A stretch of DNA of 64,000 nucleotides, taken from Tulasnella sp. 424. Lineage: Eukaryota; Basidiomycota; Agaricomycetes; Cantharellales; Tulasnellaceae. Positions 3,171 to 63,764 of this stretch are shown in pieces. The number at the start of each line of letters is the position of its first letter. Position 1 is the stretch's first letter. The DNA lies in NCBI GenBank assembly GCA_019633425.1, contig WSUB01000055.1, positions 62,001 to 126,000 on the forward strand, read 5' to 3'. The position numbers and the translations under genes are program-made. A model generated the notes under the pieces. It saw only the letters and a program-made list of their open reading frames with translations. It was not told the origin of the DNA and did not search any database.

Positions 3171-3399
3171 TGACCTCCGTTTGAACTTTCTTGGTGTTGG
3201 ATTTGACGTCTTAGTTAGAAATCTGCAAAATGGTGTCGTAGTTGTCGTACCATCTTTCAATGAATTGCGTGATGCGGCGTTCCTTGCTTCGGACGAACCA
3301 AGCCTACAAAAAATCTCATCAGTCTGCGACCACTTTTTTTCTCAACACACCCAGTCACCTCCCATCCCCCTTCAATCGTCTACTTTCTTAGAGATAGAA

Positions 3400-12135: not shown

Positions 12136-12444
12136 GACTGTTTTTAGAGTAGATTAGCGGTCGTAACTGGTGTTAGAAGTTGGTGGGTGAGGTGGTGCAG
12201 GGAGGTGCAGGAAGCGAGTGGTTGAAAAGCAGCGAGGGAGCAGCGAGGGAGCAGTGTGCAAGGAGAGGCTTATCTATGGAGTGCTTACATATGCCACCAA
12301 GCTTTGGACACAAGCTTCCAACAAATATACATTTTTTTCCAGTCTTGGTACACTTTCATCCAAAACTACAACACGAATCAAGGCAAATGACACTTAAGAA
12401 AAGGAACGAAACAAAGGCAAATTTTAAGAAGCAGAGCATCTAAC
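12136..12444. other. Short intergenic region
   Basis: This is the promoter side of the minus-strand F-box gene and the 3' side of the minus-strand transcription factor gene. It has a small direct repeat of GCAGCGAGGGA near 12230-12255. No coding feature is supported. Confidence 0.5.
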
Positions 12445-15400: not shown

Positions 15401-15485
15401 GCGATAAAGCTTACGGGCAAGGGAATCGAGGCTTTTCGTGATCTGGAGAGTCTGGTGACGGAGGTGACTGGGTAAGCAGCGCCAT
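12445..15485 (-). CDS. C2H2 zinc-finger transcription factor with fungal-specific regulatory domain
   Basis: Predicted nuclear DNA-binding regulator. Exons (minus strand): 15485-15415, 15341-15231, 15149-14975, 14911-14208, 14149-13858, 13786-13503, 13440-12876, 12804-12445. Phases close throughout, giving 853 aa. Two tandem C2H2 fingers at residues 22-75 are each split by introns (FPCPTCGAQYSRLEYLRRH, then FSCSDCAKTFARSDVLLRH). A basic, alanine-rich linker with GRPRKGSGKGRHDRR is a likely nuclear signal. From about residue 355 the fungal_trans-type domain begins (CYTVPHWMLPPLYKLCRI, TSQMSIIHEPTFRL, SFAESFSLIQALLIFHVP, WKEWIQRETVRR). A 57-nt segment (14461-14405) has good splice sites and no stop, so it may be an optional intron, giving 834 aa. 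Target genes are unknown. Confidence 0.88.
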
Positions 15486-18400
15486 TAGATTACAGGTTGA
15501 GAGAGGGGGAGGGAGGGAGAGTGGAGGTTGGAGATTCGACTATTGAGTGCCGCGTCGTCCGGTGGAGGTGTCAGCTCTTATATCTGTTCTGAAAAGACGT
15601 CTCGCTACTTTCCCCGGTTATCTGCGTTCAGAACTCCCCCCCAAAAGAGATCAACAGACTCACACATTCCTTCGGATTCGGCACCGCTTTCCCGGCATTA
15701 AATATCCGTTCGCTCCGTCAGCATCGTCCTCGAAAGTCTCAACGGCAGCCTTGGACGTCAAGGCGTTCACGTCCACGTCGACGACGATGCCGACCGTGGC
15801 AGCAAAGATTGCGTTATGGCTTCGTCCGACGAGCCGCGAGACATTGCTCACGTCATGAATTCGGTCACTCCAACTGTTGCCCGGCATTAGATGGGCGCTC
15901 GAGATCAGCTTGACCTTACTCAGCCAGTTCCGATCTCGACGGCCCGGTGGAGGCTTATGTCATATAACATCACGTGCTGGGAAAGAATGTGGCGTTCTAG
16001 TCCTGCTCTCTTGATTGGCGAGGCATTGGACCCCGCTGTTGGGTCGGGAGGTCTCTGAAAACGCAACGCAGGCAATAGAGTCTTCAAGGACAGCTCTTAT
16101 AGTCAGCTTGGGCTCCTAGCCTCTAGCCAGGAACACCTTCAACTCGTAAACACAGCTGGGCGCCCCACTGCGCCAACCATTTGCCCGACTCTGCGGATGG
16201 CCCAGTCCCCGGACAAACCCGTTAAACGTCCTTGATCGCACCGCCATTCATAGATCTAAAACCAAAGCGCCGGCGGAATAGTCTCAAAGGAGAGAGCTCT
16301 CCTAGCCGTCTTCGGCTCCTCTGGCAGTCTTGAGCTGTCTCTGGTCCAGGAACATCGACTTTGCAAGTGACCTAGCGTCCCGGGAGGGACTCGTAAAGCG
16401 TTCTTGATTGCGTCCCGCTTGACAGATGGGAGTGCTGTGGTCGACAGCCAATGCGATAAGCTTCTGGATCGTTCCACTAGTTGATGAAAGCGCCACTTAA
16501 CCTTGCTTCCCTGATCCATCGTGCTTGTTCAACGACGGTCATGGCCGTGCCCATATCTTCCCGTCTGGGCTGCTCCAGAGAATGGGGCTTTGTTCGCTGT
16601 GGAAGCCCTAAGGAGGTCCTCGTGGTATTCGTGGCCATCGGTCACGTAATTGACGTGAGTACGGCGCCCTTCGATTCGAAACCGAACTGCAATGACGCTA
16701 AGCGCATTAGGAGCAACAAGATGGGTTTTTAAGCCAAGCTGTGACGGGTGTGAGACTGTCAGGCGACTGACAGCCTCGAGATTCCGGAGGGGGTATTTGC
16801 GGAGCCTCCAAGTCCACTCTATATGCTTCACTGCTTACTTTCCACCCAGGAATTGCTGCAAGGAGCACATTTCACAGTAGCGTAATTCCGCAGGTTGGGT
16901 TTCTACTGTGCCGGAAGAGTCCAAAGCGAGGGAGTGTACGGGTCAAGGTGAAGCAGCGGCCGGGTGTGTAGATGCGTGGTGGTGCTCCAAGCCTTACCCC
17001 CAGGATGATTTGCGGTACTTCAGTCGGACTGAGTATGTAAAATGAACCCCAAAACCAGATACCCATGATCCCTAGCTAAGTATATGTATTATTTTTTAAG
17101 GGATTTAGATTGTCCAAATTTTTTTGGTGTAGCGCTCCGTCAGTCCAACCTTTCATCGCCTTCACAGCAGCCAACAGTATCATCCCCACTTGCTAAAGCT
17201 CTTGGGGGCTCGAGCTATCGACCATCGACCTCTCCACACCTTCATTCTGACCTCTCCACCCCCCCCTAACCCTCACACTTCGTGCAACAATCCATGCCAC
17301 AGTTCCACTTCGGATTTTTAGGAAGTGTGATGAAAACTACTGAAGCAAGACTTTCACTTCCCCATATGGCTTTCACCGTTCTATCACTCCGAACCACGAC
17401 TTTGAAGCCAGATTCAGGTTATCCCACTTTTTGTTCTTATGTCTCGCACGTTTAGAAGTCGGCGCGAGCGTCTTCTGATAACGTGTCAGAGACGTTCCCG
17501 AGGGTCCCCGAGTCTCGGTAGGGTCCCCCCGAAGACATCGTCAAGGCTTGTTTCCCCGCACAGCGTGGCACGGAGCGGCCCGGGGAGGGGAAGGCGTGTG
17601 ATACATTTGTGCTAATCCATTTTTAGCCCAAACCCCGAACACATTTCCCCCCTGGGTAAATACGTCTTTAAGCGGACCACTTCGCGTTCGTTACCGGCGG
17701 CGGTCGACAACACACTCGTAGCCTATCGCAGCATCCCAACAAAATGTTTGGGCTTCCCTTTCATCTCAACATCGACTCTTTCGACGAATGACCCTTATTG
17801 CGTATATTGCAAATATTTCTGGAAGGCATCAGCCCTCTCCGAACAAGCTCGTGGTCCCCCCGCATGGACTTGGGGTCGGACATACGTTTACCGACCTTCT
17901 GCCAAGACCAAACGTTGAACCCGTTCTCCCGCTTCTACAAACTCTCACTAACTTGGTAATGCAAGACCGGGGCGTATCTCGGGAGATACTCGACCCTTCC
18001 AACAAGACTCCTCGGGTGCCGTGACCGACCTTCAAGGGGGCTCGTGGAGCGGGAAGTTCCTTACCCGAAGGTACACGGTACCCCGACCGTCAAATCGAGC
18101 TGGCTTCCGCTCAGCTTCTCGAGACCTGCTCTAGCATTTATAGCGCCTCCAAGCAAAAACTCTGTATCAAGAAGTCCTTCGTCAGCCTCGCGCGACGGAG
18201 AATCTACATCCGCGAAATTTCCAGGGTTTATCGTCGAATGAGCAGGGGCACCAGGTTCGGCTCGGGTAGTCCAAGCGTCCGAACTGGTGCAGGAGAGGCA
18301 CGTAAACAGCTCACCCGACCTGGATGATCTGCAAGATAGAAGCGCTTAATATGCGCGTAGACAGCGACACTCATCCGAGGATCAACACTCTGTCGAATCC

Positions 18401-18594
18401 AACAGCAACTCGACATCGGCACGACGGTTTTTCTGAATTCGATATCCCCTAAAGGAAAACGTTGACCATCGTCAGCAAGAGCGACAAATTAGCCGAGAGT
18501 GGGCCATGGTTCATCTATATAAATTTGTGGAAATGCCTTTTCGAAAGGATCATCGTCCTTCAGTCCAAGTCGGTTCAGAAAGCCCCCCCAAAAG
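15486..18594. other. 3.1-kb intergenic region, no supported gene
   Basis: The left end is the promoter side of the transcription factor gene and the right end precedes the secreted DUF1996 gene. Only short, unconnected open frames are present; none shows a domain I recognise or a matching splice set. The 17.4-17.6 kb part is rich in short G and C runs. I saw no terminal inverted repeats, but a decayed mobile element could be hidden here. Confidence 0.45.
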
Positions 18595-20912
18595 ATGTGG
18601 ACACCCATTCTCGCCACCATGGCCCTTGCCGCCCTCCAGGCCAATGCTCTCCTCCGCTTCCCATGCGCGCAGTTAACTGTGACGCGCTCTGATCCGTAGG
18701 CTTCTGCTCTCGTCCAAGGTGGCGGCATGACTGACACTCCGTTGACTCTAGGCTCATCAGCCCTGGCAAGGTTTCGGCACATCTTCATCAGGTACGTTGT
18801 GGCAGCTCTCACAGAACTATTAGACTACTGACCGACTCTCCTGCAGGTTGTTGGCGGGGTAAGTCCATCGTCTACTAGAAGGAGGCTCATCAGCGATGAC
18901 CATTCACGCCGGGCGATCCACATTTTAGAACTCGTAAGTACGATGATATTCGCCCGTCTCAACCACGCTCTAAAGTGCGGGCGTTAGTTTCGACTTCGGG
19001 ATGCCCAACAACACAGACTACCTCCAGAGCCAGTCCACTTGCAGTACTTGCAGCATCAAGGAGAACAAGTCCAACTACTGGTCTCCTACTCTGTACTTCC
19101 AGTCGCCCAAGAATGGCACTTTCAAGCGGGTGAGGCTCATCTTTGTGTTTCTGGCTCCCCTCCTTTATTTAGCTGACAGCGTACCTCCCTCTTGCTACAG
19201 GTCGCACAACGCCCAGGCCCTTTGACAGGCAGTCCCAACGCCGGAATGGTCGTCTACTACATTCAGATCGGAACCGTTACGTCGTTCCCTAAGGTAAGAG
19301 AAAACAAGCCCCAAAGTGCGCCTCTTAAGCTTACATACATCTTTTACCGCTGTCGTCATGATTGCGATGAACAGAACTTCCGCATGATTGCTGGCGACCC
19401 CTTCCTCCGCTCGTACAGCGACCAGGTCGACGACTCCCGCTCAATCACTTTCCGTTGCCTGCAAGACGCCACCTCCGGCAATGGCCCCGACACTCATGGC
19501 ATGCCAACCACGAAGTGCGCTGGCGGCATTCGCAGTCAGATCAATTTCCCCACCTGCTGGGACGGAAAGAACATTGACACGCCTAACCACAAGGTCCGTA
19601 CAAAGTGCCTATAGCCAGTCCTTCATGTGATCCACTAAATCAAATCCCGTTTAATAGGATCACGTCCATTATGCTACCGGTTCTAGCTTCGGTAACTTTG
19701 GTACTGGCTGCCCATCGACTCACCCTGTCACCATCCCTCTTCTTTTCTTCGAAACTGTTTGGGACACCACACCTTTTGATAACGAGTGGGTTAACGGCCA
19801 GTCACCCTTCGTCTGGAGCATGGGCGATCCGTGAGTCCTTGTCGCTATTGCCGTCCTTTCTACTTAATTGATCCGTAAACGATTAGTACCGGCTACGGGT
19901 ACCACGCCGACTACATGATGGGGTGGCCTGAGGATGTCTTGAAGCAGGCTATGGCTCAATGTAACGATCAAGGGGGCCAAGTTTCTTCTTGCCCAGTCAT
20001 CACTTCTCGTTCGGAGCAAGATATGAACGACTGTGCCCAACCTAACCGTGTTGACGAGCAAATCGACGGATGTGAGTTTCTGAGTACATTACTCGAACCT
20101 CTCGATCTCCTTTGCTCATCGGCTTTTCCACAGGGCTCCCCACGCTCCCAGGTTGTAACGCCGTCCAGCAAGGTCCTGCACGTGCAACTCAGGCCTCTGG
20201 ATGTGGTGCTCCTACCGAAACCCTTGCTCTGAGCGCCGTCAGCTTCCTCAGGAAAGACATTTCAGGATGGACCCCCGTCGGCTGCGCCAGCGAGAACACC
20301 GGCGAATCTCTACTCACGGGTCCCAAATACACTCCAGGTGCAATGACGGTCGAAAAGTGCCTCAATTACTGCGGTACCAACGGATACACCTACGCCGGTC
20401 TCAAGAACAAGAGCACCTGCTCATGCGGTAACAGTATCAACACGTCCAAGTTCTCTTCTAGCTATGCGTGCAATCTTGCTTGCGACGGTGACCCTGCTTG
20501 TAAGAGTATTTCATAACAGTTGCACGGATATCTCAGAGCCTAACCTCCACCGACCTGATCCAGCTTTCTGTGGCGCTGTCAATCGTATCGCCGTCTACAG
20601 CGGTTCTGGTCCAGTGTCCCTTCCAACCACTACGGCGGGCCCAACTTCCACGACAAACGCTCAACAAACCACAACAGCTCCAGCTTCCGGTCCTCAGCAG
20701 ACTCACTGGGGACAATGTGGAGGGAAAAGCGTAAGTTCAGTCCGATTGACGCTTCCGGTCGGCGTGCTAACCGTCCAATGCAGTATACCGGTCCCACTGT
20801 CTGCCAATCGCCCTGGACCTGCAAGTACTCCAACGATTAGTAAGTTCCAAGATACACGACGCATCTGGACGTATACTCATTATCTACCTCTAGCTACTCC
20901 CAATGTCTCTAA
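18595..20912 (+). CDS. Secreted DUF1996 - WSC - CBM1 protein
   Basis: Probably an extracellular carbohydrate-active or wall-binding protein. Thirteen exons (18595-18695, 18752-18791, 18847-18858, 18929-18933, 18988-19129, 19201-19293, 19375-19593, 19658-19830, 19887-20071, 20134-20499, 20564-20730, 20784-20839, 20894-20912) give 525 aa. A signal peptide (MWTPILATMALAALQANA) precedes DUF1996 at about residues 20-325 (LLRFPCAQL, SPGKVSAHLHQVVGGNSFDF, KCAGGIRSQINFPTCWDGKN, PSTHPVTIPLLFFETVWDT). A WSC domain follows at about 350-455 (GWTPVGCASENTGESLL, MTVEKCLNYCGTNGYTYAGL, CSCGNSI). After a Thr/Ser/Pro linker comes a C-terminal CBM1 cellulose-binding module (HWGQCGGKSYTGPTVCQSPW, ending YYSQCL). 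Exon 4 is only 5 nt. The catalytic role of DUF1996 is unknown. Confidence 0.93.
18929..18933 (+). other. 5-nucleotide microexon
   Basis: The five bases AACTC lie between an acceptor (TTTTAG) and a donor (GTAAGT). They supply N and most of S in VVGG-NS-FDFGMPNN. That matches the conserved VGGN-S/A-F motif of DUF1996 proteins, and neither flanking exon can join the other in phase without it. Confidence 0.85.
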
Positions 20913-21206
20913 TCGTAACCGCCCAACTGGATGGAAGGCGAAGCCAGTCGGCGTCCTCTTGGATACGACTTATTACAACGAGCTTGTTCTCATACAACCT
21001 TTTGAATTCACGTCTTTTTCACTGCCCTTCGGGATTTATGTACGAAAGGTTTCAGGTGTGTAATACTTTCTAAGTGAAGCACAGGTCAAATCGTAGATTC
21101 GAGCCAGCCTCCTTTGCTCAATGCATAAGTTACATGCTTTCGATTAAATCCATCCTCAAACTTCGAGTCATATACAATAGATCCTCGAGAAAGGTCCTGT
21201 TTGATA

Positions 21207-23698
<2,492 letters not shown>

Positions 23699-23920
23699 TC
23701 GATTACAGGTTTGGAAGAGAGGAGGTTCGTGCTCGGTTCGCACGTGTGTGAATTCGTCGAGGATTAGCACCTCCACTCCCACGTGGCCAACCGGCTGACG
23801 GGAGACCTCTCCGACAATTATCATCCAGAAACCTCCAAGTCCGATACACAGGCGCTATATACGATATTTACATGCTGATTCAGTACTATAGAAGGGCCTG
23901 GACCTATGGCTTAGCTACAT

Positions 23921-26566
23921 CTACACCCCGGAGGGGGAGCTGGACCCAGTCGGTAGCTTGAGGCTGGCCGTGACAAGTTGGGGTATCCGTCGCTGAAGCC
24001 GTCTTATATCGCACAATAAAGGCGAAGTGTGGCTGACGGAGGAATCTCGGGTCAAGACTTGTCTGACCTGTTTTCGACGTTCCCAACGTATGATGGTTTT
24101 CGGGATACCGCTTAGCTCGTCACGCACCCAACCAAGGTAATATCCATGCTCCGTACAAAGTGCCAGACACGCCTCGAAATGCAGTGCCGCCTCATCGTAT
24201 CGTTCCAACTCCACTAAGATATTACCCATGGTCTGCAGATGCCTTTGTATCCTCCGTGTATCCTGCAGCGCACGATGTTGGGTAATTGCATGGTCGTGCC
24301 AGACGAGTGCTTCGTCTAGTTTGCCTTGCTCTCTTTTCACCTCGGCAAGGCGTTCAGCAGCTCTTGCAGACTCGAAATCGGTCAGAGAGATTTCGTGGTA
24401 GACGGAACACGAGTCCTCCAATGCTGTCGTCGCCTCGTCCAGCCGTCCTTGTCTCTGAAGGCAATATCCCAGATCCGATAGACTCTGACCAAGTCTCCAC
24501 CATGCGTGAATGCGTCGAGCGACAGAAGCAGATTCTCGACACAGTTCCTCCGCCTCGCTGTAAGCGCCCTCCTGGCCCTTGACGAAGCCTAAGTGGGAGA
24601 GGGCGGTGCACACTCCGTGCTCCCATCCGATTCTCCTCGCTGTGTCGCAGGTTTCCGAGAGTGTCGAAGCTGCTCTTGTGTTGTCATTCTCATCGTAATA
24701 AAGTAACGCGAGAACCATCAGAGCCTTGGCTTCGCCCAGCTTATCCCCGCAACGACGAGCGATTTCCACGGCGTTCTCCAGTGTCGAGGCGGCCTCTTGA
24801 AATACACCGTCTCGCCTCTGAATCTCGCCGATCCTCTCGAGGCATTGCACAGCGCCTACGTCGTTGCCATTCCTTTGGAAGATTTCAAGGGCCTCCTTCA
24901 GGAAGGGCATCGCGTCGTTTTCCGCGACTTGGATGGTCAGGGAGCTACCCATGAGATATAGGACTTCAGCCGTTCCGAGAGGATCGTCGAGGTTTCTGAA
25001 TTTCTCAAGAGCAGCGACTCCAACCTTCAGAGCCTTGAGGTGGTAGGAATGGCGATAGTGGACGGCCGCTTGCTTTCGGAGAACGCTGGCGACGCCCTTT
25101 TCGTCGCCCTCCTCTTCATATACGTCCAGGGCTTGCTCGAGATATGAAAGGCCTTCCGTGTAGTTGCCTTTCCAGCTTTCGAGATCGCCAATGTTCTCTA
25201 GAAGCGCAGCAGAGCGGACACCACGGTCGATATTATCGGGGGTAGGAGGGCAGCGTGGCTATTCGTGAATCGTGTCAAAGGTGACCAAATATTCAAATAA
25301 ATCGGCCCCCAGAGTTACTCACGAGGTAGGCAATGGTCGTCCGGCACATACTAGCCGTCGGTCGCTCCTCGGGATCAGCCACCCAGCACCTTGTCATCAA
25401 CTCCCAAACCTGGAGAGAGTCACTGAGGCGAGACTCTCCGTCGATTTGTGGGCGGGGACTTTCGAATATTCTCCTGATGATAGAATAGTCGGCGAGAGTC
25501 CCTTCGTAAGGAAGTTCACCGGTCATGATCTGGAACAGTGGTATGTCATCACTATCGCGTTTAGAGGTTGAGATGGGAGAGGCACCAACCTCCCACACTA
25601 GCCAGGCCCATGCATACACATCGCTCCTTGGAGTTCTTGGATGGCCGTCAAGGATTTCAGGACTGCACCAACGGATAGACCCTTTGAAACCTGTCGACGT
25701 CTCCAACCTCCCGAAGCCACTGTCTTCAAACAGACGCGCTAGCCCAAAATCGCATAGAACCGCCCTGCAGCTAGAGTTGATGAGGACATTCGCCTTTAAT
25801 GATTGAGAGAATTGGGTATTAGGTTGGGAGCCAGGACAAAATTCCTCTCTTACCGATTTGATGTCTCCGTGGCACACTGGTGGCTCAAGTTGATGAAGAA
25901 ACGCTACAGCGTCGATGGTATCGTAGACCTAATGTAGTTACCTTCGTGAGAAATGAAGGAGAAGCAATATAGTCAGACCTACAAGAGATAGTTTTTCTGG
26001 TACTTCCAACTCCCGCTTGTGGACGAATTCCATGACGTTCCCATAGGGCTCCCATGGTGAAAGCAGCCACGCCTCCAGCCGCTCAAATTTCGCGTAGAAG
26101 CCGAGGAATTTGGCTATGCCTGGATGATCTTTAAGACCCGACCAGACTAACAGCTCCTTCGTAAACGCCTGGAAATGTTTCGGATTAGCTAGACCGAGCA
26201 GGGATCTAAGCGCGCAAGAGCTTACTCTCTTAGCATCTGATATACTCTCTACCTCTGATAGTTTTATCTGCTTGACAGCAACTTGCTGAGGGGGGCCATA
26301 TCGTCGTGAAGCCAACCACGTGGGTATGAATGAAGAGGAGTGAAGCTGGGCTTGCTGAACTACTCCATAACCCCCCGAGCGCCTCGAGTCATCGACAGAC
26401 AAAATAATCCTACGACGATCGACCTCGAATGTTCTTAATCGCTCGTATGCCTCGTCCTGCGAGCAAGGCGCAGATCGTCAGTGGGAATTGTTATTTGGAC
26501 TGAACTCCCACACACCACCGCCTGGCCTCTCGCTCGTCTTCGTGCTAGGTCCTCCGTGCTTGACAT
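23921..26566 (-). CDS. Protein kinase - TPR fusion protein, copy 1
   Basis: Seven exons (26566-26516, 26456-26226, 26168-25983, 25928-25854, 25793-25590, 25529-25323, 25258-23921) give 763 aa. Kinase domain (about residues 35-300): Gly-rich loop RRSGGYGVV, ATP-lysine VAVKQIKL, catalytic loop CHGDIKSANVLI (HGD instead of HRD), DFGLARL, SIRWCSPEIL, DVYAWAWLVWE; this is tyrosine-kinase-like (TKL) in style. Residues 320-740 form about ten tetratricopeptide repeats (SWKGNYTEGLSYLEQAL, VQCLERIGEIQRRDG, RQGRLDEATTALEDSCSVYH). The paralogue next door has the same exon plan, and its matching start MSSTE supports the ATG chosen here. An ATG 21 codons upstream is open here but not kept in the paralogue. 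Known partners: none; TPRs suggest a protein-binding sensor or scaffold. Confidence 0.85.
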
Positions 26567-43400: not shown

Positions 43401-46400
43401 GTCCATCGAACCTGAGGCATGGAGGCACTTGCACCCCAAGGTCGTCCCCATTATTATCAGCAGACTCATCCATCATCTATCCGACTTCAAAGATGCCACC
43501 CGCCAAAAGATTTCAGAGCTAGAAATCGTTGATGTTAATCCTTCAGGCAAACGCAAAAGCCCCGAAAGCGTTATAGACCCACTCTCCCCGCTCGCTGGCT
43601 TGTTTGACCGAGAGGATGAAATCCTCCCCGTGGGCGAATTTGCCAAGGAAGGGCAAGGATCGTATCTCCAACACCTTCACAATCATCACATGATGCAAAC
43701 AGCGTTGACAAATGAAATCCTCGAGGAACGCATCGACTACATCGTAACAACCAGTCAGGAGCCCGACCCAGGCATGACAGCGAAGAAAGCTTTGCGCCTC
43801 CTGAGTCTTCTTGACAAGCGTTCGAAGGAGCATTCCTTGACGGATATGCCGTCCCACCTGGTCGACGCTCTTAGTCAGAAGGCATGGATTCCAGTAGGAG
43901 GAGAGTTTTATCCGTCGTCCGATTGTTGGGATAGCCGAGCTATGGACACCTTGCTCTGCGATTGGGTTCTGCCTCAGGTTCCGATTGAAGTCAGCTCCTC
44001 CAGCCTACGGATGTGCCTCGGGTGGAGTACGGTCCCATTTGATGTCCTTCGGCGCCAAATGTTGGCGTTAATGGATGCCTGTCCGGAATGTCAAGTGTCT
44101 GCGGCGGAGGATATTTCGGATCGGATCAAAGCCGTTCTAAGGACCCTGGCCTCGAGGCTGAGCGACGGAACATGCAGTCAAGGCGAGCTCGAAAGCCTTG
44201 CAGACGAGCTCGGGGATGCCGAATGGGTCCCCATCTCAGAAGGTCGCCGAATCAAAGCCCAACGCAGTTGGTTGCCTTCGGATCAGCTTGAGAGGGACTT
44301 GGGCTCTCGCTTCTTTCCCGTTGCTGCATCCTTGCTGAAGGAAGAGGGTATCAGGGATCTTCTAGCCTATATGAAACTCCCGGAACGGTTCGTCTGATTT
44401 CGAACATCTCGTTTAAACGTGATGCTGACGTGAAGGCCATACCTTTTCTAGTCCTTCAGTTGCGGATCTGCATTCCTGCCAGCTAGAGATCTCGGAGGAG
44501 CTTTCTCAGCTAGATTCAGATTCTCGGTTGCGCGAAGCTCTTATTCGAGCCTCGATCGACCTCGCCCTCGAGATCTGCCGCGGCCGTGATCCTTCTGAAT
44601 TGCGCCGACTCCCATTGTTAGTCCCTACCGAATCGGGGACGCTTGTCGATGCCGAAAACGTCCTTTACAATGATATGGATCTGGACCCTCAGCGTCTTCA
44701 GGATGGAATCCAGTTTACTCATCCGCTAATGTCGCAAGCTGATGCTAAAGACCTCGGACTGCCGACATTCCGGGAGCGACAACTCACCCAGTTGGAAAGC
44801 GCTGACGACGATAATGGCTTCTATATTGGAGAGGACATCACCACACGGATCAGATCTGTTCTTTTGGACTACGACATCGACCACTCAATTAACGAGTGGG
44901 TAGCCAATGCTGCGGACGCAGGCGCAAGTGTGCTCAAACTGCTAGTTGACGAAGCCAGCTTTGAGGGTAGTCAATGTGTCCCGACAACGCAGGAATTCCC
45001 CGCTGGACCGGCACTCGTGATTCACAATGATGCTCTCTTCAGCGACGAGGATTTTCAGGGAATTGGCAATATTGGAACGGGTGGAAAGAGCAACAAACCC
45101 AATTCCATCGGCCGCTTCGGGCTGGGAGCGCTGTCATTCTACCATTTTACCGAGGTACGTTCAACTCCATTTCCTTCCTCCCAGAGCTAACCCTGAATGA
45201 CCTGCGCAATAGCTCCCTATGATTATTTCCGGGAGCTCCGTCTTGCTCCTCGACCCATCACGCCAATACCTCCCCCTTAAGAGGAGCCGTGGAATACGCC
45301 TAACCTTGGATATCTGTTCTCAGTAAGTCAATTTCTATAGATTATGTACTAAGAGCCTTACTGGATAAATTACAAGGAATTATTCTGATCAACTGAAACC
45401 CCTTGAGGGAGTCTTTGGATTCTTTGCGGAAAAGGGCCATTACAAGGGTGTAAGTTCCTCATTTTCGTCTTTCAATGCGTGAAGGCGAATATTGAAGATA
45501 TCTTCTAGACGCTCTTCCGACTTCCCCTTCGGACAGCTGGGCAAGCCGACTCGAGCAACCTGTCGAAGAAGCACGTCACCACCGTCGATGTCTTCGACAT
45601 CATACGCCGTTTCTACACCTCCGCTAGCCGCTCCTTGTTCTTCACTCCGCTGCAGGCAATGTCCGCCGAGCGACGAACACCCGATTTGGCGCTGTCTGGT
45701 ATATGGCATACCACTGCGTCTCGAAAAATGGTGCGCCAAGATGAGGGGTTTAACTCGTTTGCTGCGAGCGAGGTTTCCGTCCAGCAGCGGGACTCAGAGG
45801 ACAACGTTGTCAGTCAGCGGTGGCTAGTCACTAGATCTACAACGTCTCATAAAGACTTCCCTCCGGAGTTCGAGACCTTGATCGATAAACACCGCCTGTT
45901 AAACAGAAAGCCCAACTTCGGCCTGGCATTGAACCTTTCTGCGGAGGAGTACACGCTCAAGTCGGCGCTTTTTACCTACCTTCCTCTCCCTGTTTCCATC
46001 GCCCTCCCGGTTCATCTCCATGCGACGTGGATTCTGGCGCCAGATCGACGTAGCATCCGCAATGACGCATCGATTCAAGGTGGAGATTCACCCTTAGACA
46101 GCAAATACAACAGGCACATCATGCAAAAGTTCATACCTGCCCTGTATCTCCAGACTCTGGAGTTGCTGAACGAGGAGTATCCGTTCGCGATGAAGTTGGC
46201 ATGGCCTCGTCGATCAGGTGCGGGTGGAGAGGCGATTGTCGCAAGGGAGCTGTACCGTCAACTTCCCAGCGTCCGGCGCCTCGTCCTTCGCACTGTGAAG
46301 GATGTACGGACCTCTCCCGGCAACGCGATCATTCACTTCAATCGAAACCCCAAAGCAGTGCAGAAAATCGTGGCAAGCCTCCCCGTTCCGAATTACGTGT

Positions 46401-49381
46401 CGGACCCCCATTTCGACACGGATTTCGTCAGGAATTGGAACACACTGCAGGACGACTCTCCCTCAATGGTCGCAAACTTGCTTCGAGAACATGCGGCGGA
46501 AGTGCGCGATCTCTGTCACGGCGATTCATCCCACATAACCCCAGGCGACATAGAAGACATCCTGAACTATCTACTCAGCGGAAACCAAAGTCTGGTCGGA
46601 ATCCCGTTACTTCCACTTGGCAATGGCAGCGTCGTTGCGTTTGGGTCTCACCAAGGTTCGATCGTCTTCGGGTCACATCTCGCCGTTGTGGAGAGATTCT
46701 TCGGGAATTCGCACGTGATCAGTTCCGAAATATCTTCTTCGCTCGCTAAGAAGCTTTGCGAGCGTCAATCCGGCCTCAACGTCAGAGACTTTAGCTACCT
46801 CCACCTCCACCAGTTCTTCAAGGATCTCGATGACCCAATTACAGCCATGGAACAGAAGCAAGTCAAGAATGCCAAACTCCAATGGCATAAAGGGCTCCTA
46901 GCTTTTCTTGTTCAGGAGTGGCAAGCGCCCGCAATGCAGCACCTAAACAATCTACCACTCATTCCGACGGAAAACGGAGATTTGTTGGTGTCTCTTGCGT
47001 ATGCAAGGGGTAAAAAAGTTTGGCGCAAGCATGGCTGGGAAAGCCAATGTTTGAGCCGCGTCTTTCTTCAACTTCAGGTTCCCGTTGTCAACGTTCAACT
47101 CCTCCCGGAAATATTATTCCCGGCCAGGGAAGCCAACGCAGAGCAACAACTACTCGACGTGGTCGAGATACTTCAACAAGTCCCTACTATGGCTACTTCG
47201 ATCTCCAAACGGGTGAAGAAAGATGATTGGGCCGAATTCGCGAACATCCTTCGATCTTGGATCCGTAGCTATAGCGATCACCGCGTCTCTGCCAAGCCGA
47301 AGTGGTCTCCTTTCCTCTCCTCATACTACGGTCGGCAAACTGGGTCGAATCCCTCGGCTCGCGTGCCCTCCGAGTCGGCGGAGCCAGCGTTGCCTGCTGT
47401 CCTCGCGAACCTTCCCTTGTTCCACGCTTGGCAAGGCTCAACCTTCTTGACCCATGTGCCCCCAACTAGTCTCGTAATGCTGCCCATCACGGAAGACCTA
47501 GAACTCATCGTCCAATTTCTCCCTGAAAACAAGATCTTCGCCCCGAAGAGTCCAGAATTGGAGGCCCTTCTGAAACAACATAGCCGCAACCGGATTCTAT
47601 CATTCGACGAATTCTTCGGACAGCTCAAATTACCTCGTTCCCAGATACCGGAGTCGCTCCATATTCCCCTCAAAGCCGTCATAAACTCTGCGATAAACAA
47701 TCACCAAGGCCCGTACTGTTATCCTTTGATTCCCGATGGAAATGGACTCTTAAAGAAACCAGGAGACCTGGTTGATCACCGGGTCGAGGCATATGCACTC
47801 CGCTTCGAAGGTCGCTCGGACCAATTCGTTCACCCCGCATTCAGGGACATGATCGATGGAATGCGAAATATTGGCGTCCGGCATGAATTCACTCCCCCGG
47901 AATTGCTGGATTTCATTCGTTTGTTGGACGGAGAAGCGAGAGAAGGAGGAGAAGCGAGAGAAGGAGGAGAAGCGAGAGAAGGAGGAGAAGCGAGAGAAGG
48001 AGGAGATGTGATGGCTCGCGTCGAGTGGGTTTGGAACTACATCAACGGATATCCTCTACGCATGGGAGCGATTGAATACAACCAAATTCGAGGAATGCGA
48101 TTTATTCCTCGCGGCCATCGGAATTACCGGCTCGATTCGATGCTTCCAGAATGCATCCCTAATTTACCTACGGTGGTCTCGCCCGACGAAGTCTATCTGG
48201 ACGAAAACGCAGCAATTTTGTGGACCCAACGAGCCCCTTTCGCCTCTTCCCCGACGCCACGCTTGAGTCGTGTATATCCGGAGTTAGGGCAGCCCACAGC
48301 GGAGCATGTAGTAAGTCATCAGACGTAGCGACTAAGTTTCTGGTCTTCTTACCACGATTGTTCAAGGTTCAACATCTTGTCACTCTTACCGACGCCGTTG
48401 CCGCGAAGAACGCGAAGTCGAACAATTTATTCCAGGACATTCAAAACATTTACGATTGGCTCAAAAGAAACCAAAAACAGGCTCAGCAGCTGCTCGAAGG
48501 CGTCTCCTCCCGTCCGATCTGGCTGAATATCGACTCGTCGAAAGACGATCCTTGGGTCTGGAAAGCTGCGAATCAACTAGTCTTCGACTTACCGCATGAC
48601 GGGAAGGGGTCTTACAGAGCGAAGGAGTTCCTGAATGAGTATAACGCTTTAGTCATCGCAGCCGGGGCCAAAAAACGTCGTTTCGCAGCCGTCCCTTCAC
48701 AGCAGCGTGAGGTTTCTCACTTGGAGAGGATATTTGATGGATGCAGGGCGCTAAGAAAGCAGGAAATGCTTTTCGACATTTGCTTCAAAGCCGAGGGACG
48801 CATTATAGGTGCCCATCTCGTAATGATGGCTGCTGTGGTTCCGCACTTCGCTAAGGCCTTAGGGGGTGGTTCTCGCACGGCCGAGGTCGTCGAGTATCCA
48901 CTGCCTGGAGGAACTTCCGCTTTTGCTGCGACTGGCGTAGTTGGTACGTCATGCCCCATCGTAAAACATGTTAGGCCACAACACCAACTGATGAGACGCT
49001 GCAGACTATGTTTACGAGGGTCGCTTTGCGCGTCCCACGCCCACTACGACTGACGGTGCGTTTCAGTGTTGATGTTTTTGTGCATAGTCTCACTCACTTG
49101 ATACCATAGATGCGGATTTAGCGCTCGACCACTTGTTGGATTTGCTACGGCTCGCCGATACCTGGGAAATCGCGGACCTAAAAGGCCAGGTAGTCGATTG
49201 CATCTTTGAACTCAAGCTCATCGACGAGGAGAACTGCGACTTTAGTATGTCTTTTCTGTGGTCTCCTCAGGATGGCACTAACACTGGTGTTATTGCAGCT
49301 ATGGCAAAAGCCGAAGAGTACAATTCTGTAGCTCTGGCTGAGTACTGCATGAAGACGAAAAAAATCAATGGTTGGAAGTGA
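40480..49381 (+). CDS. Sacsin-like double HSP90-type ATPase protein with C-terminal BTB domain, copy 1
   Basis: Thirteen exons (40480-40611, 40675-40884, 40940-41814, 41870-42284, 42343-44387, 44452-45154, 45213-45322, 45377-45449, 45509-48310, 48367-48943, 49005-49055, 49110-49244, 49299-49381) give about 2,736 aa with all phases closing. Module 1 (residues 1-330) is a sacsin-type GHKL ATPase: ILREILQNTDDAG (N-box), STGKFGLGFCTTYH-VTDYPH (G-box), LDPHKN. Module 2 (from about residue 1350) repeats it in divergent form: INEWVANAADAGAS, IGRFGLGALSFYHFTE. Both are followed by long sacsin-repeat-like regions (ARDIWPL, LPIIPN, LPLIPTENGDLL). The last 160 or so residues form a BTB/POZ domain (FDICFKAEGRIIGAHLVMMA, LLDLLRLADTWEIADLKGQV). 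BTB domains recruit Cullin-3 ligases; sacsin modules are chaperone-like. Joint function is inferred. Confidence 0.85.
41011..41046 (+). repeat. 18-bp in-frame tandem duplication
   Basis: Two copies of CTCCACCGGCTGCATTA(C/G) repeat the residues STGCI within ATPase module 1 of sacsin/BTB copy 1. The paralogue lacks the repeat. Confidence 0.85.
47933..48004 (+). repeat. 18-bp minisatellite, four units, in frame
   Basis: Four exact or near-exact units of GAAGCGAGAGAAGGAGGA encode E-A-R-E-G-G four times inside exon 9 of sacsin/BTB copy 1. The paralogue has an unrelated acidic stretch there (IDEDTRRGQDT). Probably length-variable between strains. Confidence 0.92.
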
Positions 49382-55600: not shown

Positions 55601-58190
55601 GTGGGATTTTCTTTGGGGTCGCTACATCCGAGGTGCAATTCGTGGACGAGTCTGTCCGGGTTATCCCCAACATCGGCACAAAGAAATTCATCGACCATGT
55701 ACAGGGGAGAATTCTTCACAATGCATTAAAAGAAGCTCCCGTTTCCTCGGAAATTTCCGTATTGGAGATGGTAGTCGAGCCTGATGTCTGGGTGCAGCAA
55801 GACCACGATTCGCTCCCATCCATCATTGACCGGCTGATTCGGCGGCTTCCGGACTTCCCAGAGGACGCCCATAGAAAAATAGCCGAGCTGGATATCGTGA
55901 ATGTCGGGTCACGTTATGCTCGCAAGGCTCCAAACCAAGTTGTTGATCCCTCCTCCACTCTCGCCGGTTTATTTGGCCCGGAAGACGGGGTTCTTCCCGT
56001 CGACGAATTTGCTTGTGACGAGCCAGGGTCATACTTACAAACCCTTCGAGCTTATGGAATGCTGCAAACGTCGATTACCAGCGAGATTGTAGATGGAGTC
56101 ATCGCCACAATCATGGATCGAAGGCGTCGGCTATCTTACGAGGACAGGGAGCGTAGGGCGTTGGGGCTACTTTCTCTTTTGGACAAGCAATCGGGTGCCT
56201 TCTTCGATGAACTGGCCACCGGTACCGTCAACTCGCTCCAGGGAAAGGCGTGGTTACCCGTGAGTGGACAGCTTCGGCGTCCCCTAGACTGCTGGGATGC
56301 CAAGGAAGAAGACGCCGTTCTGTGTGATAGGGTACTCCCCAGAGTTCCAATCACGATCACATCGGCCCGACTCCGAACCTTGCTAAGATGGGAGTCTGTC
56401 CCCAGCGAAACTCTACGGCGCCAATTCCTCGAGGTCCTGGATAACAACGATGAATCGCCAGATGAAGTCCAGGAAAGGGTCAGGGGGATATTGGAGGCGC
56501 TGGCGCGCCGATTTGAGAGCGGAGAACTTACTGAAGAGCTCTTGGAGGATTTAGTAGCCGACCTGCGGGATGGGGGGCTCGATTGGGTTCCTGTGACTGG
56601 AGATCGCTTAGCGCGCCCTGAGCGAAGCACATTGGAACCGGTCGATCTCGGTTCCCAGTTCCTCTCTGTGTCAACGTCCTTGCTAAGGTTCAATGGAATG
56701 GAGACTCTTCTTACCCGTATGGGAGTACTTCCACGGTGAGCTGCTTTTGTTCTCTAGTGTTGAAGCCCGGTCTTTCTGATGCTCGAACTGCAGGCCGTCG
56801 CTTAAGGAGCTACGTGAAGTCCTACGAGAGATCTCATCGGAACTTTCTGGTGCTGAGATGAGCACAGCCTCTAGAGAACCTCTTATTCGTGTTTCAATCG
56901 CCATCGCGGAGGAAATGTGGCACTGTCGAGCGCACCCAGACTTCGATCGGACCTTTATTATGATTCCTACGGACACAGCCTTACTAGCGGAAGTCACAAC
57001 GATCATAGTCAATGATATGGGACTAGAATATCAGCGTCCTCCTGAAAGTATGCATTTTGCTCATCCCCTTCTGTCGACCGCAACAGCCAGAAAGTTCGGT
57101 ATACCGACCTTCCGGGAGACTCGACTTCAAGAGCTTGAAGACCCTGAAGGTCTAGAATTCCCCATCGAAGAGCACATCACAACCCGCATTGCTGGAGTTA
57201 TCGCCCAATACGACATCGAATACTCGATCAACGAATGGACGGCAAATGCTCAGGATGCTGGGGCGAGTCGGCTGACCCTACTGGTCGACGAGGCTTCTTT
57301 CGATGATCTCGAAGGCGTTCCAATCAAGCAGGATCCCCTCCTCACGGAGAAGAAAAAGGATTCCATCCTCGGACCTGCTCTTGTGGTGTTCAATAACAGC
57401 GTATTTACCGAGGCGGATTTCAAAGGTATTAGCGAAATCGGGACTAGGGGGAAAGTCGACAAGTCCGATGCGATCGGACGTTTTGGACTAGGAGCACTTA
57501 CCTTCTATCACTTTACAGAGGTCGGTTCTCGGAATTGTAATTCTTTGTATGGTTTCAGCTAATGACGTGATATGTCTAGGTCCCAATGATTGTCTCTGGA
57601 AGTTGGGTGGTGCTTTTAGATCCCTCTGGACGCCTTCCCCTGGCAAAAAGCAGAGGCATTCGCATGCGGTTACAAGAATGTTTCAGGTACAGTGACTATA
57701 ACGAATCAAAATCTAAGGTCATTCTAACTTCCTGTCCATTAAAGCCGATTTCATGACCAATTACTACCACTTCACGGATTGTTTGATTTCTCAATGGATC
57801 AAGAGAGCTATCCTGGTGTACGTCGGGTCCCATTGCGTGTAGCTCTCTTTAATAACAAACCGCGCTCCAGACTATTTTCCGGCTCCCCCTTCGCACGAGT
57901 GTACAAGCAAAGAGCAGTAAATTGTCAAAAACACCCTTTACAACCGTCGACTTGTTCAATATTGTGCAGCGGTTTTATAAGACTGCCTGCAGCTCTTTGT
58001 TTTTCACTTCGCTTGTCGAAATATCGGCCAAACGACGACTCGGAGGTCAAGACCGCACTCCGTCAACGATCTGGTCCGTGAAGGTCAAGGGGGATAGAGA
58101 CGTATTGTCTCAGGGTGGCGACGCTGGAACTCAGTTCTCCGCAACCGAGCTACAGCTTATCTGCAAGAACGATGAAAGCACGGATCTTCA

Positions 58191-58199
58191 ACATGATGG
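58191..58199 (+). repeat. Target-site duplication, left copy
   Basis: ACATGATGG, repeated exactly at 60055-60063. Nine bp is the usual duplication length of Mutator-like transposons. Confidence 0.93.
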
Positions 58200-58291
58200 T
58201 AGCCTCCCAGTCTCAGGCGTAATCGTGGGGGTCACGTGTGCTCAATTTGCACCCGTGAGAACCAAACAAGTTGGTGGGTGCAGAGCAAACC
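58200..58291 (+). repeat. Left terminal inverted repeat (92 bp)
   Basis: Identical over 92 bp to the reverse complement of 59963-60054; identity ends abruptly at 58292. It carries no stop in the host gene's reading frame. Confidence 0.95.
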
Positions 58292-59484
58292 GACCCAAAG
58301 ACGTGTTTGACGACCTCTACGATGAATCTCTGGAACGCGTCACAATCAAATGTCAAGAGCTCCTTCAGAAAACACCCTTCACGTGGCAGGCCCACGCGTC
58401 TGCTGCGATTCTGAGTGGTGTAGACTGCTTGGTTGTAGCGCCAACAGGGGGAGGCAAGAGTTTGCCAATAATCCTTCCGATGCTTCTGAAGCAGCAAGGC
58501 TTCGCGCTTGTACTTTCACCGCTGAACGGGCTCCAAATCAGTCAGGTATAGGAATAGTTATCCATGAGAGATCATATAGCTTCGCTTACCAGGCTTTGTA
58601 GGCAAATGCATTCAACAAGATGGGTCTGAAGGCGGTGGCGGTCAACGGGCAAACGGCCTCCACGTCAATTTTCGCCGTAAGTTTGTTTTGCTCTTTTTGG
58701 TAGCACAGAACAGTGACAGGAAGTTATTCAGAGAATCAAGGCCGGAGAATATCAAGTTGTCTTAACGTCCCCGGAGATGATCCTTTCGAACGAGGGCTGG
58801 GCTCAGGTTCTCGGCGACAACAAGTCGATAGGGCTAATCGAGTACCTCGTTGTCGATGAGGTACATTGTATCTCGACCTGGGGAGCTGATTTCCGGCCCG
58901 ACTATGGTAGAGTTTCGACCATCAGATCCTTTCTCAATCGGAAACTTCCCGTACTTGCGTTGTCGGCAACTCTTACTGCTGACGTGAGGGCAGACGTCCG
59001 ACGACACCTCGGCTTCAAGGAACGACGCACCATGTTCATCAACCTAGGCAACAATAGACCCAATATCTGCTGGGAGGTTGTTCAGATGACTGGGAAGAAG
59101 AATGATCTCTCTTCAGACCTGGCATTCATGATCCCCCAAGACTTGGGTCAAGACGCCGTCCTCGAGAAGGGTATCGTATTCGCGCAGTCGCTTGATCAAT
59201 GCGAACGGCTATTCTACACCTTTTTAGACATGATTCCAAATCATCTTCATCCTCAGGTCGAGTGTTACCATTCGCTTCGTGGCGAGGAGACGAAGGCGCG
59301 CATCCTCACCGAATATATGAAGGCCGAGAGCAAGATCAAAGCGGTGTTTGCTTCCGAAGCCTTGGCCATGGTATTCCTCTCACTTGCAACGCCGTCAAGG
59401 AGACTCCACAGCGTCGGCAACCCTTCCTCGGACCGAGCCCATTCCATCAGCTCAACAAAGCTAAAGGCCTTGAGCATAGCATGA
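58292..59484 (+). CDS. RecQ-type DNA helicase core fragment inside the transposon
   Basis: Superfamily 2 ATPase of RecQ style in three exons (to 58545, 58602-58676, 58732-59484) with GT-AG introns. Motif I LVVAPTGGGKSLPIILPML, motif Ia-like LSPLNGLQ, motif II VVDEVHCISTWGADFRPDY, motif III LALSATLTADVRADV, and helicase domain 2 GIVFAQSLDQCERLF and ESKIKAVFASEALAM. It ends in unrelated sequence just where motif V (GMGVD-like) is expected, so it lacks motifs V-VI, the RQC and HRDC domains. No ATG precedes motif I in frame inside the element; the frame is open leftward through the terminal repeat into the sacsin exon. Telomere-linked fungal RecQ helicases are possible relatives. Unlikely to be a working helicase alone. 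Confidence 0.85.
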
Positions 59485-59858
59485 TTAGTGGGTATATTCG
59501 TCATTCTTTTATCGAAGCGTAGCATTTCCTGATCGCAGGTTCTGAGGAGCTCTTCCGTAGCGAGTTCAAGCATTTTCTTTCTCGGACCGTTCATGTTGGG
59601 AGGGTGTCGATACCAGCGACGGATAAGGTTCGTGAAGTGAGAGCTTGAGTAGAGCTTTGATCGTGCCATAGAGAAGCGGCGCTCCTTCTGACATCTTGGG
59701 TTGTCGATCCCGGCGAGAGCAGTGAGGAACTCACCCAGTTCGAGATTTTCCGCCTCTAAAGCGTCTAAGATAGCTGAAACCCTGCCAGCTATGTCTTTCT
59801 GATGTTCAGACTCATTCTCATATAGCTCTCCTATGATTCCAGTCTGCTGTGAGGCCAT
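59265..59858 (-). CDS. Unknown ORF on the opposite strand of the transposon
   Basis: An ATG-started frame of 197 aa (MASQQTGIIGELYENESEHQ) lies next to the right terminal repeat. The part LDALEAENLELGEFLTALAG, then FTNLIRRWYRHPPNMNGPRK and LLRTCDQEMLRF, resembles from memory the N-terminal region of large Agaricomycete proteins often labelled DUF6589. That is a weak, unverified resemblance. The last 40 or so codons overlap the helicase antisense and are probably not real protein, so the true fragment likely stops near 59380. This looks like a second captured piece joined tail-to-tail to the helicase piece. Confidence 0.4.
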   Translation of the reverse strand: MASQQTGIIGELYENESEHQKDIAGRVSAILDALEAENLELGEFLTALAGIDNPRCQKERRFSMARSKLYSSSHFTNLIRRWYRHPPNMNGPRKKMLELATEELLRTCDQEMLRFDKRMTNIPTNHAMLKAFSFVELMEWARSEEGLPTLWSLLDGVASERNTMAKASEANTALILLSAFIYSVRMRAFVSSPRSEW

Positions 59859-59962
59859 GATCTGAGGGTGGGTGGTTTGAACGGGGGTCGTTATTGGGGT
59901 ACGGTACTGTATGGCGCGCGTTTCGGCGATGGCACCCCACGAAGTACGTCAGGCGTTCTGGG

Positions 59963-60054
59963 GGTTTGCTCTGCACCCACCAACTTGTTTGGTTCTCACG
60001 GGTGCAAATTGAGCACACGTGACCCCCACGATTACGCCTGAGACTGGGAGGCTA
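59963..60054 (-). repeat. Right terminal inverted repeat (92 bp)
   Basis: Reverse complement of 58200-58291 with no mismatch over 92 bp. Confidence 0.95.
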
Positions 60055-60063
60055 ACATGATGG
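60055..60063 (+). repeat. Target-site duplication, right copy
   Basis: ACATGATGG, identical to 58191-58199. The sacsin/BTB exon resumes at 60064 and reads GQPQRWLVTRSSNSHE once the element and one copy are removed. Confidence 0.93.
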
Positions 60064-63000
60064 TCAACCCCAGCGATGGTTGGTCACGCGGTCCTCCAAT
60101 TCTCACGAGTCATTTCCCCCGGACTTTCGTCATGCATCTTTCCTGGAAAAGCACCGGTTATCGAATCGAAGTGTTCACGTGGGGCTCGCATTCAATTTAT
60201 CTTCCAATGGACCCATACAGCAATCGGGGCTCTTTGCTTCCGTCCCTCTCCCTGTTTCCACATCCCTTCCAGTCCATCTTCATGCTTCATGGATACCAGC
60301 TCAAGACCGACGAACAATCCGCAGCGACGCCGCAGTTCCGGGATGCGATCTTCCATTGGATACTCAATACAATCAAATCATTATGCAACAACTAGTCCCT
60401 CCGCTTTATCTCGAAAGCTTGGAATTCATCAACCTGGAGTTCCCTGACCAAATCTCCCGATTTTGGCCCCGCCGACTGGCAAAGCAGGAGGAAGAACTGG
60501 TAGCAATATCTCTCTATCAAAAGCTCCCAGCTACCGAACATCGAGTGCTTCGTGCTTGGGACGATACACTTCTTTCACCAAGAGCTGCATTGGTGCACCT
60601 CCATCGGCACCCAGAAGCTGTCAAAAAACTCCTTACTGCCCTCCAGCTCAGGCTGCCTACATATGTCCCTGAACCATCATTTGATACGGATTTCTTCGAT
60701 GAGTGGCCTACGCTTCGCCATGACAGCGCTTCAGAGGTTGCAGCTTTGCTTCGACAGCATTCAGAAGCAGTAATGGAGATTTGTAACCAAGCTGCGCCTT
60801 CGATCGAGCCCGGGGACATAGGATTGGTTCTCGAGCATCTTGTTGATGGAGGGGAAAGCGTAGTGGGAATGCCGTTGCTTCCATTGGGAAATGGGAATAT
60901 TGTCCAGTTCCAGGATGGCAGTCATCCACATGTCTTTGCTTCCCACACCGAACATATCATCCGCCTCTTTGGGCCTGACGACATCATCAGCGACGGAATT
61001 CCAGGAGACGTTGTCCAACGTTTGATCGACCTTCCTGTGAACGTTGGAGCCCTCGACTCTAAAGGCATACAGGATTTGCTTCAAAGGAGGTGTCTAGAGC
61101 CAATTATTCCCGGAGTACGGATGGAGATCGACGGGCAGAAGCTCAAATGGCACCAAGACCTTCTTGAATGGATCGCTTCTTCCGATTCCCCAGTTCTCCT
61201 GGAGGAATTAGCGAGCCTTCCTCTAATCCCGACAATAGACGGACGGCAGCTCATCTCTCTGGAACACGCCTGCGATGGAACTGTCTGGTGTCGCGAGTCT
61301 TCCGAAGACGCTCGCATACAGCCCATCCTCCTCCAGTTGAACATAACCGTCGTGGACCTACAAACTCTCCCGGGCCCGTTACGGAGATCCAACAAGGCAG
61401 ATGTCGCGGGAGTTCTGGAAATTCTGTCGCAATCAAGATCGAACCTTTCTGACCTCCACAAGTCTGTGAGAGTGGAAGATTGGGCCAGGTTTGCTGCCCT
61501 GATCAAATCCTGGTTGCAACCGGGGAGCCTTTCCAGCGTCGCTATAAACTCCAAAACACACGCTGCCCTGGCCAGTTTACCGCTGTTCAGCGGTCAGCAC
61601 GGCAACACCTCCATCCCGTTCGTGTCCTCCTCTGATCTTCATATGCTACCACATCCCGTTGATCCTGTTTCACTCGCGAGATATCTCCCCCCACACCTCA
61701 CTTTCGCACCATTCTCCGCGGAGTTGTCGACAATACTTCAGAAATATGACCAAAGCCGGATCATGTCGTTTGATGCATTGTTTGATAAACTCAATCTCCA
61801 ACATCGCAGACTGCCCGAATCCGAGGATGTTTCGCTCCGCGCCCTGCTGGAGCTCTTTAGGAATCATCACCCTAGACGGTACTATCAGCCCCTGATCCCG
61901 GACGGTAACAGATACCTGCGAGTTCCGAATCAGCTCAACGATCACACGGTCGAGTTGTTTTCAACATGCTTCCATGATCGGCAGCACATGTTTGTCCATC
62001 CAGCATTCCGAGATCTCATCGATGATTTCCGTCGGCTTGGCGTGCACCATGAAATTCGCCCAGCCGGAATGCTCAAGTGCATTGAGGCTATTGATGAAGA
62101 TACTCGCAGGGGTCAAGACACTCGACTACGGGCCGCGTGGCTCTGGGACTTCATCAACCGTGACCCAAGTAAAATGCATGAAATTGCATATACTCGGGTT
62201 CGGGGACTACGTTTCATCCCTCGTCACATTCAACGGTACCAGTCCGACGAAACTCTCGATACATATGCGTCGGATCTACCCTCGGTAAACTCGCCGGATG
62301 ATATGTGTCTTCCAAAGCACGCCCTCATATTATGGACGCAACGAGCATCATTCGCAACCCCTCCGAGACCCGTTGTCGAGGCCATATACCCCTCATTAGG
62401 AGCGCCCACGATCGACCATGTAGTAAGTTTGCTGTATTGATCTAGATGATGTCTAAATTGACGTCTTCATTCAGGTGGACCATCTACTGGTGCTTGCAAC
62501 AACTGTGGCAGCGGTGCGGCCAGCATCCAATGCCTTCTTTTTGGAAATCAGTCAAGTCTACGAGTGGCTTCAGGAGAACTTGGAAGACGCTCTTGATCGA
62601 TTGGGGCAGCTCTCTGAAGAGCCGATCTGGCTTAATATTGATGGGCCGGAAGACGTCTGGACGTGGAGACCAGCCGCACGACTAGTTTTTGATGCGCTGT
62701 GGGACGGGGATGACTATTACCGGGCAAGGCGATCTCTCGAAACGTATAAAGAGCTTATAAGGTCGGCCGGTGCCTCTCAAGTTATCTTCCCCGAGTTGCC
62801 TTCTCCAGACGTCGAGCATGCGCCTCATCCTGACTGGGCAATGTCGGAGTGCCTGAGGCTTCGATTGGCTGGTCTCTTGTGCGATGTCCGTTTTGAGGCA
62901 GAAGAAGAGGAGGTCCTCGCTCATAGGGTCATCCTTGCAGCTGTCATACCTTATTTTGCTACAGCATTTGCAGGAGATTTTGCTGAAGGGGGGCTGACTG

Positions 63001-63764
63001 CTGGACCCGCAAATATCCCGACGTACCCCCTTCCCGAGGACACACTAATAATCTCGGTTAGATCAGTTGTCGGTGAGTGCTTATGTATACTTTGCGTAAC
63101 CGCGCCGCATTCAGACTAAGGCCTATCGGAAGATTACGCGTACACCGGACAATTTGTGTTTGATATCCCTGACACGCCTGATGGTGAGTATATCAATTAT
63201 CAAGAGCAATCCACTTTCTGAAGTTATTGATAGGTGCAACTATCGGTCTTGAGAGATTACTGGATCTCATCAAGCTATGCAATTTCTGGATGATCGACGA
63301 GCTAAAGGGAAAGATCGTCAGAGCCATCGCCGAGCGTCAGCTAGTTAATCAAGAGAATTGGAATGCTGGTGTGTCTGGCTCTCAAGTGGTCTTCATTTTG
63401 AAGTATAGCTGACCCTTCCTTGGATATCCAGTTCATGAACACGCTGTAACATGGAATGCGGAGGATCTGGCACACTATGCCGAAGGCGCGGCCGCTATGA
63501 ATGGTTGGACCTGAGAGATGATGAAGTAGCACGATAGGAGTGTACAGTAATAAGACGATTTTGGTAGCTTCTCTCTTTTTGAACAAAAATCATACCTAAC
63601 CATCGCAGGCGGAAAAGATTCGTCTGGGAACTGAGACTTGGGCTGAATGACAAGCTTCGTACGTTCCTGATCTAGCGAACAATTAGCGGCAAATTATTCA
63701 GGCCTCTCGAGCGCCAAGGTATAACTGTGTCACATATAGGCCCTGTTCCCCTAGTTTTCGGCTT

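Follow-up and report, generated by a model that had tools for sequence, protein, structure and literature searches.

A probable AcademH-type transposon of Tulasnella, internally deleted and retaining part of a RecQ-type helicase gene, lies within a sacsin-like gene

AcademH DNA transposons, reportedly defined by Kojima in 2020 (Mobile DNA 11:15), unite a transposase and a helicase in one element and are the closest described counterpart of the element reported here. According to the accessible part of PMC10045372, their target duplications measure 9 or 10 bp and those of AcademX 3 or 4 bp, and the accessible part of PMC10799480 reports AcademH from Basidiomycota, Ascomycota and Mucoromycota. 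Putative non-autonomous Academ copies are also described for the agaricomycete Marasmius oreades, where, in the available text of PMC8290104, most of them are shorter than 1,000 bp and lack transposition domains. For KolobokH, too, the available sections of PMC9587614 describe a RecQ helicase carried by a DNA transposon of fungi. The literature searched contained nothing joining Academ with Tulasnella, a genus of Cantharellales within the Basidiomycota, and the portion of PMC12730594 at hand makes no mention of Academ.

Here, an element found in a 64,000-nucleotide stretch of the genome of Tulasnella sp. 424 (contig WSUB01000055.1, positions 62,001 to 126,000; hereafter the window, on contig C400) is described. 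We are largely confident that this copy belongs to a cut-and-paste DNA transposon of the AcademH type in Tulasnella and is itself non-autonomous and internally deleted, since the helicase, the DDE-like transposase and the 9-bp duplications of its family match what is published for AcademH; the name AcademH itself would follow from the published description of the group, with which the family was compared, and not from its sequences. The window copy differs from AcademH in being internally deleted and non-autonomous, and from the elements of M. oreades in its length of 1.86 kb and in keeping about half of a helicase core.

The element spans positions 58200-60054 (1,855 bp) and is flanked on each side by ACATGATGG. 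It begins with TAGCC and ends with GGCTA, and the 92 bp at both ends are identical in inverted orientation, forming perfect terminal inverted repeats (TIRs); an inverted-arm search returned 58187-58291 and 59963-60067 (105 nt, 96% complementary). When the flanks were compared at lengths from 2 to 15, they agreed exactly at 9 only. End and flank comparison therefore confirmed the ends, the duplication and the body length that had been reported in the first-pass annotation, a reading of the letters of the window that took the element for a young Pack-MULE-like transposon with a captured RecQ helicase fragment. A DNA search of the whole genome (46.8 Mb, 448 contigs) gave 50 listed matches, the window copy included. 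The 19-bp terminus of the element, allowing up to two mismatches, occurs at 22 places versus one for the reversed control, so that the recurrence of the TIR, which had been anticipated, exceeds chance. Both ends lie within 10 kb of each other in six copies: those of the window (1,855 bp), C37 (7,239 bp), C240 (1,311 bp), C129 (964 bp), C34 (192 bp) and C16 (196 bp), and single or partial ends are also present on C17, C44, C197, C323 and C112. The duplications vary in sequence among the complete copies and, compared over the same lengths, are exact at 9 bp in five of the six; the expectation that every copy would show them held for these five and failed for C240, which agrees at 8 of 9 positions, and for two ends on C193 that lie 22 kb apart and whose compared flanks do not match. 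These observations support the view of a TIR transposon that looks young, is non-autonomous and generates 9-bp duplications.

A full-length partner sharing the TIR had been predicted, and one was found on C37. This relative of 7,239 bp is bordered by an exact 9-bp duplication and carries two facing genes on opposite strands, one for a DUF6589 protein and the other for a RecQ-type helicase. The former, a putative transposase, reads through four exons into 924 residues without stops and is identical to FRC04_002015 of Tulasnella sp. 424; the spliced protein matches Pfam DUF6589 (E 1.6e-91) and no other family at E<=0.1, the MULE (Mutator-like element) transposase family PF10551 included. The helicase reads through six exons into 691 residues with DEAD and Helicase_C domains, while its public model, of 685 residues, departs from this reading at a single splice site and in the tail at the C terminus; in the NCBI numbering both genes are neighbours (FRC04_002015 and FRC04_002016). 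In a phmmer search against the PDB, the best matches of the helicase were chains of RecQ5, RecQ1, BLM and WRN, with query residues 35-368 aligned to RecQ5, and it matches TIGR00614 at E 1.5e-51, but with 175.7 bits, under the curated cut-off of 219.8. A RecQ-type helicase core is thus present in the parental gene.

The comparison with this relative reveals how the window copy is built. Positions 93-1187 of the window element correspond without gaps to positions 297-1391 of the C37 element (97.3% identity), positions 1187-1706 correspond, again without gaps, to 5210-5729 (98.3%), and the last 159 bp are about 92% identical to the C37 end. The 3,818 bp between C37 positions 1391 and 5210 are missing; this removes the motifs of the C-terminal part of the helicase, QRAGRAGR among them, and leaves only part of exon 1 of the transposase. 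Behind the left TIR another stretch of approx. 0.2 kb, containing the helicase start exon and the first intron, is missing; other copies retain it (L011 aligns with C37 positions 53-436, L013 with 2-460 and L016 with 2-459), and this gap is therefore attributed to loss from the window copy. The intron-bearing RecQ-type ATPase core noted earlier is indeed present, with the remaining helicase exons still open and with the motifs APTGGGKS and DEVH, which we take to be the Walker A motif and the DEVH box; the element had also been said to lack a visible transposase, and this has to be corrected, given that part of a C37-type transposase exon 1 persists on the minus strand (Table 1). The window element is a recent deletion derivative of a full-length, helicase-bearing transposon. 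The C37 element holds in addition a 1,355-bp repeat near the start of its transposase gene (L009:1934-3288; C37:107933-109287) that is absent from the window copy. Among 41 matches listed, itself included, this repeat is matched over its full length on C317 (89%), almost so on C142 and C447, and in part at many places; since it recurs in this manner, it was rejected as a part of the parent element and taken as a nested insertion, and the C37 unit without it would measure approx. 5.9 kb.

Another aspect is the origin of the helicase fragment. Plant Pack-MULEs have long TIRs, 9-bp duplications and a gene fragment inside, and they lack a transposase of their own; long TIRs with 9-bp duplications are usual for MULEs in general. 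The window element shares these features, and MULE transposase domains do exist elsewhere in the genome, so that a Mutator-like element with a captured fragment of a host RecQ gene could be envisaged. Nevertheless, the full-length relative with the same TIR carries DUF6589 and a helicase of its own. A genome-wide search for PF10551 gave four places (six scored candidates) on C194, C113, C324 and C108, none of them on a contig bearing any of the 22 TIR places. When the C37 helicase exon was compared with the proteins encoded in the genome, nine scored candidates yielded six listed matches, which lie on C37, C400 (the window copy), C427, C280 and C436; the window copy was 97% identical, and the other listed places, except C37 itself, reached at most 63%. 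No ordinary host RecQ gene was among these matches, obtained with one C37 exon as the query, which is not a census of RecQ genes, and the alignment suggested earlier as a way to find the donor yielded nothing closer than the helicase of the C37 element. Because the fragment is colinear with this helicase at 97% identity, no host donor is needed, and it belongs to the transposon's own gene, inherited and not host cargo. From these results, neither the Mutator-like identity nor the capture was borne out, and we regard a Pack-MULE origin as extremely improbable: the fragment comes from the parent transposon instead of a host gene, and the type of transposase differs. What looked like gene capture thus becomes an ordinary internal deletion.

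The opposite orientation of both genes bears on a further possibility, namely a KolobokH-type element, in which a Kolobok transposase is accompanied by a RecQ helicase and which is reported only from fungi. A RecQ helicase within a fungal DNA transposon is what such an element would show. Kolobok transposons, however, target TTAA and produce 4-bp duplications, whereas the duplications of the window family are of 9 bp, with varied sequence, and a gene of its own, on the other strand, encodes the helicase; a KolobokH identity is accordingly very unlikely.

The two-gene arrangement was also found in divergent relatives. On C427, an element of 6,650 bp (L023:2213-8862) has perfect TIRs of 206 bp starting TAGTCTCTCGGG, an exact 9-bp duplication (GTTCGAATC) and facing DUF6589 and helicase genes, whose protein identity to those of C37 is approx. 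38-40% (transposase pieces) and 41% (helicase). An annotated protein of Tulasnella sp. 425 (P0002) closely matches the C427 element. A third pair, on C280, shows approx. 31-32% and 43% protein identity to C37; a script that looked for exact 9- or 10-bp duplications beside inverted ends gave no candidate there, the only inverted repeat observed being imperfect. The presence of a RecQ-type helicase near DUF6589 in these three divergent lineages of one genome favours inheritance over a single capture event. Partial DUF6589 matches occur on C414 and C322 as well, where the genome search with the C37 helicase exon gave no helicase match and the inverted-repeat script found no ends.

DUF6589 is listed in Pfam without a function, and no paper naming it was found in the literature searched. 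Structural alignment of an AlphaFold model ranked it nearest to P element, Hermes, ISCth4 and RAG1, a ranking that covers only the families compared, and the model has a predicted RNase H-like order with the candidate triad D256/D401/E709. In a Foldseek search of the PDB, 61 matches were obtained at E<=10 and none at E<=0.001 (best E 0.019), and the top 11 rows were all DDE transposases. The predicted structure therefore gives moderate support to DUF6589 being a DDE-like transposase near P element, Hermes and RAG1. A search of the DUF6589 profile against PDB sequences returned 13 AP-complex matches (E>=0.02, profile positions approx. 24-176) that were taken as chance. As P element and Hermes are the best structural matches, and given the lack of a function or of a paper for DUF6589, the family could alternatively represent an undescribed superfamily nearer P or hAT that acquired its RecQ helicase independently of Academ. 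We know of no Academ structure in the PDB, and P and hAT could thus rank first by default; moreover, a helicase together with 9-bp duplications in fungi is what the accessible parts of the literature describe for AcademH. An undescribed superfamily is hence unlikely, and the assignment to AcademH is preferred. DUF6589, annotated only as a domain of unknown function, is now linked with a transposon that bears a helicase and makes 9-bp duplications, and basidiomycete 'hypothetical proteins' that contain it could be recognised as transposases.

The insertion site was inspected too. When the element and one copy of the duplication were left out by script, a single open frame of 906 codons ran across the site. 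Of 12 other matches listed, five paralogous places were tested; in each of the five both parts of the exon share a frame, their alignments are separated by 3 to 108 bp, and no 1.9-kb gap occurs at the site. The left neighbouring open reading frame contains a Sacsin domain. Since the frame and the paralogues are unbroken, the window element interrupts one of the genes of a sacsin-like family. Genes of this kind are clustered, in the window (45824-48316 and 60080-62437), on C418 and at C400:140163-142517; C418 bears several copies approx. 10 kb apart (13 matches listed, the window's own included). An open reading frame with a BTB/POZ domain (62475-63119) comes right after the interrupted exon and possibly belongs to the same gene.

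A possible course of events can be proposed. Full-length members of approx. 6-7 kb have long TIRs starting TAG and a presumed DDE transposase (DUF6589) facing a RecQ-type helicase. One such copy lost approx. 3.8 kb of its interior and approx. 0.2 kb behind the left TIR, giving rise to the window copy. Interrupted repair after excision typically leaves internal losses, and interrupted gap repair is the likely cause here. A transposase supplied by a full-length copy would most likely bind the intact TIRs and move the window copy in trans, and a 9-bp staggered cut in the sacsin-like gene would account for the duplication; the helicase would probably act on the cut ends, by unwinding or resolving their DNA, and may be required for the wide stagger. 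A bolder proposal, to which we assign a small chance, is that DUF6589 is the DDE transposase of a basidiomycete lineage with a facing RecQ helicase, that transposition requires this helicase as a partner, in connection with the wide 9-bp cut, and that deletion derivatives may make a truncated helicase that dampens full-length elements. Having two young-looking copies, with perfect TIRs of 92 and 206 bp, Tulasnella is a possible place to test the helicase in transposition.

Table 1. Features of the element and of its insertion site (window positions)
Feature	Position	Strand	Basis
Sacsin-like host exon, left part, same frame as right part	57856..58199	+	Frame comparison, paralogues
Left copy of 9-bp target duplication, ACATGATGG	58191..58199		Flank comparison
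Left TIR, 92 bp, starts TAGCCTCCCAGTCTCAGGC	58200..58291	+	Inverted-end comparison
Apparent deletion point, ~0.2 kb of full-length relative gone (helicase start exon, first intron)	58291..58292		C37 alignment
Helicase exon 2 remnant, presumed Walker A APTGGGKS at ~58438-58461	58292..58545	+	C37 alignment, translation
Helicase intron, GT...AG	58546..58601	+	Colinearity with C37
Helicase exon 3	58602..58676	+	Colinearity with C37
Helicase intron, GT...AG (own reading; public C37 model differs by four residues)	58677..58719	+	C37 alignment
Helicase exon 4, presumed DEVH box VDEVHCISTWGADFRPDY; Pfam DEAD match on reading 58777-59388	58720..59370	+	Pfam, C37 alignment
Main internal deletion junction, 3,818 bp missing (helicase C-terminal motifs, nearly all transposase)	59386		C37 alignment
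Putative transposase (DUF6589 gene) exon 1 remnant, start codon 59858-59856	59386..59858	-	C37 alignment
Right TIR, 92 bp, ends GGGAGGCTA	59963..60054	-	Inverted-end comparison
Right copy of 9-bp target duplication	60055..60063		Flank comparison
Sacsin-like host exon, right part	60064..62440	+	Frame comparison, paralogues

Two insertions were noticed in the same region of C193. One of 3.7 kb, at approx. 4275-7981 (L011 approx. 1276-4982), has the ends TATGGCGCGCC...GGCGCGCCATA and CCCGTG at both borders. The other, of 17 kb (8743-25848), lies within an apparent further copy of the window element and has CATCA...TGATG ends with AA at both borders; its ends resemble those of PlavakaB as given in the available part of PMC12730594.
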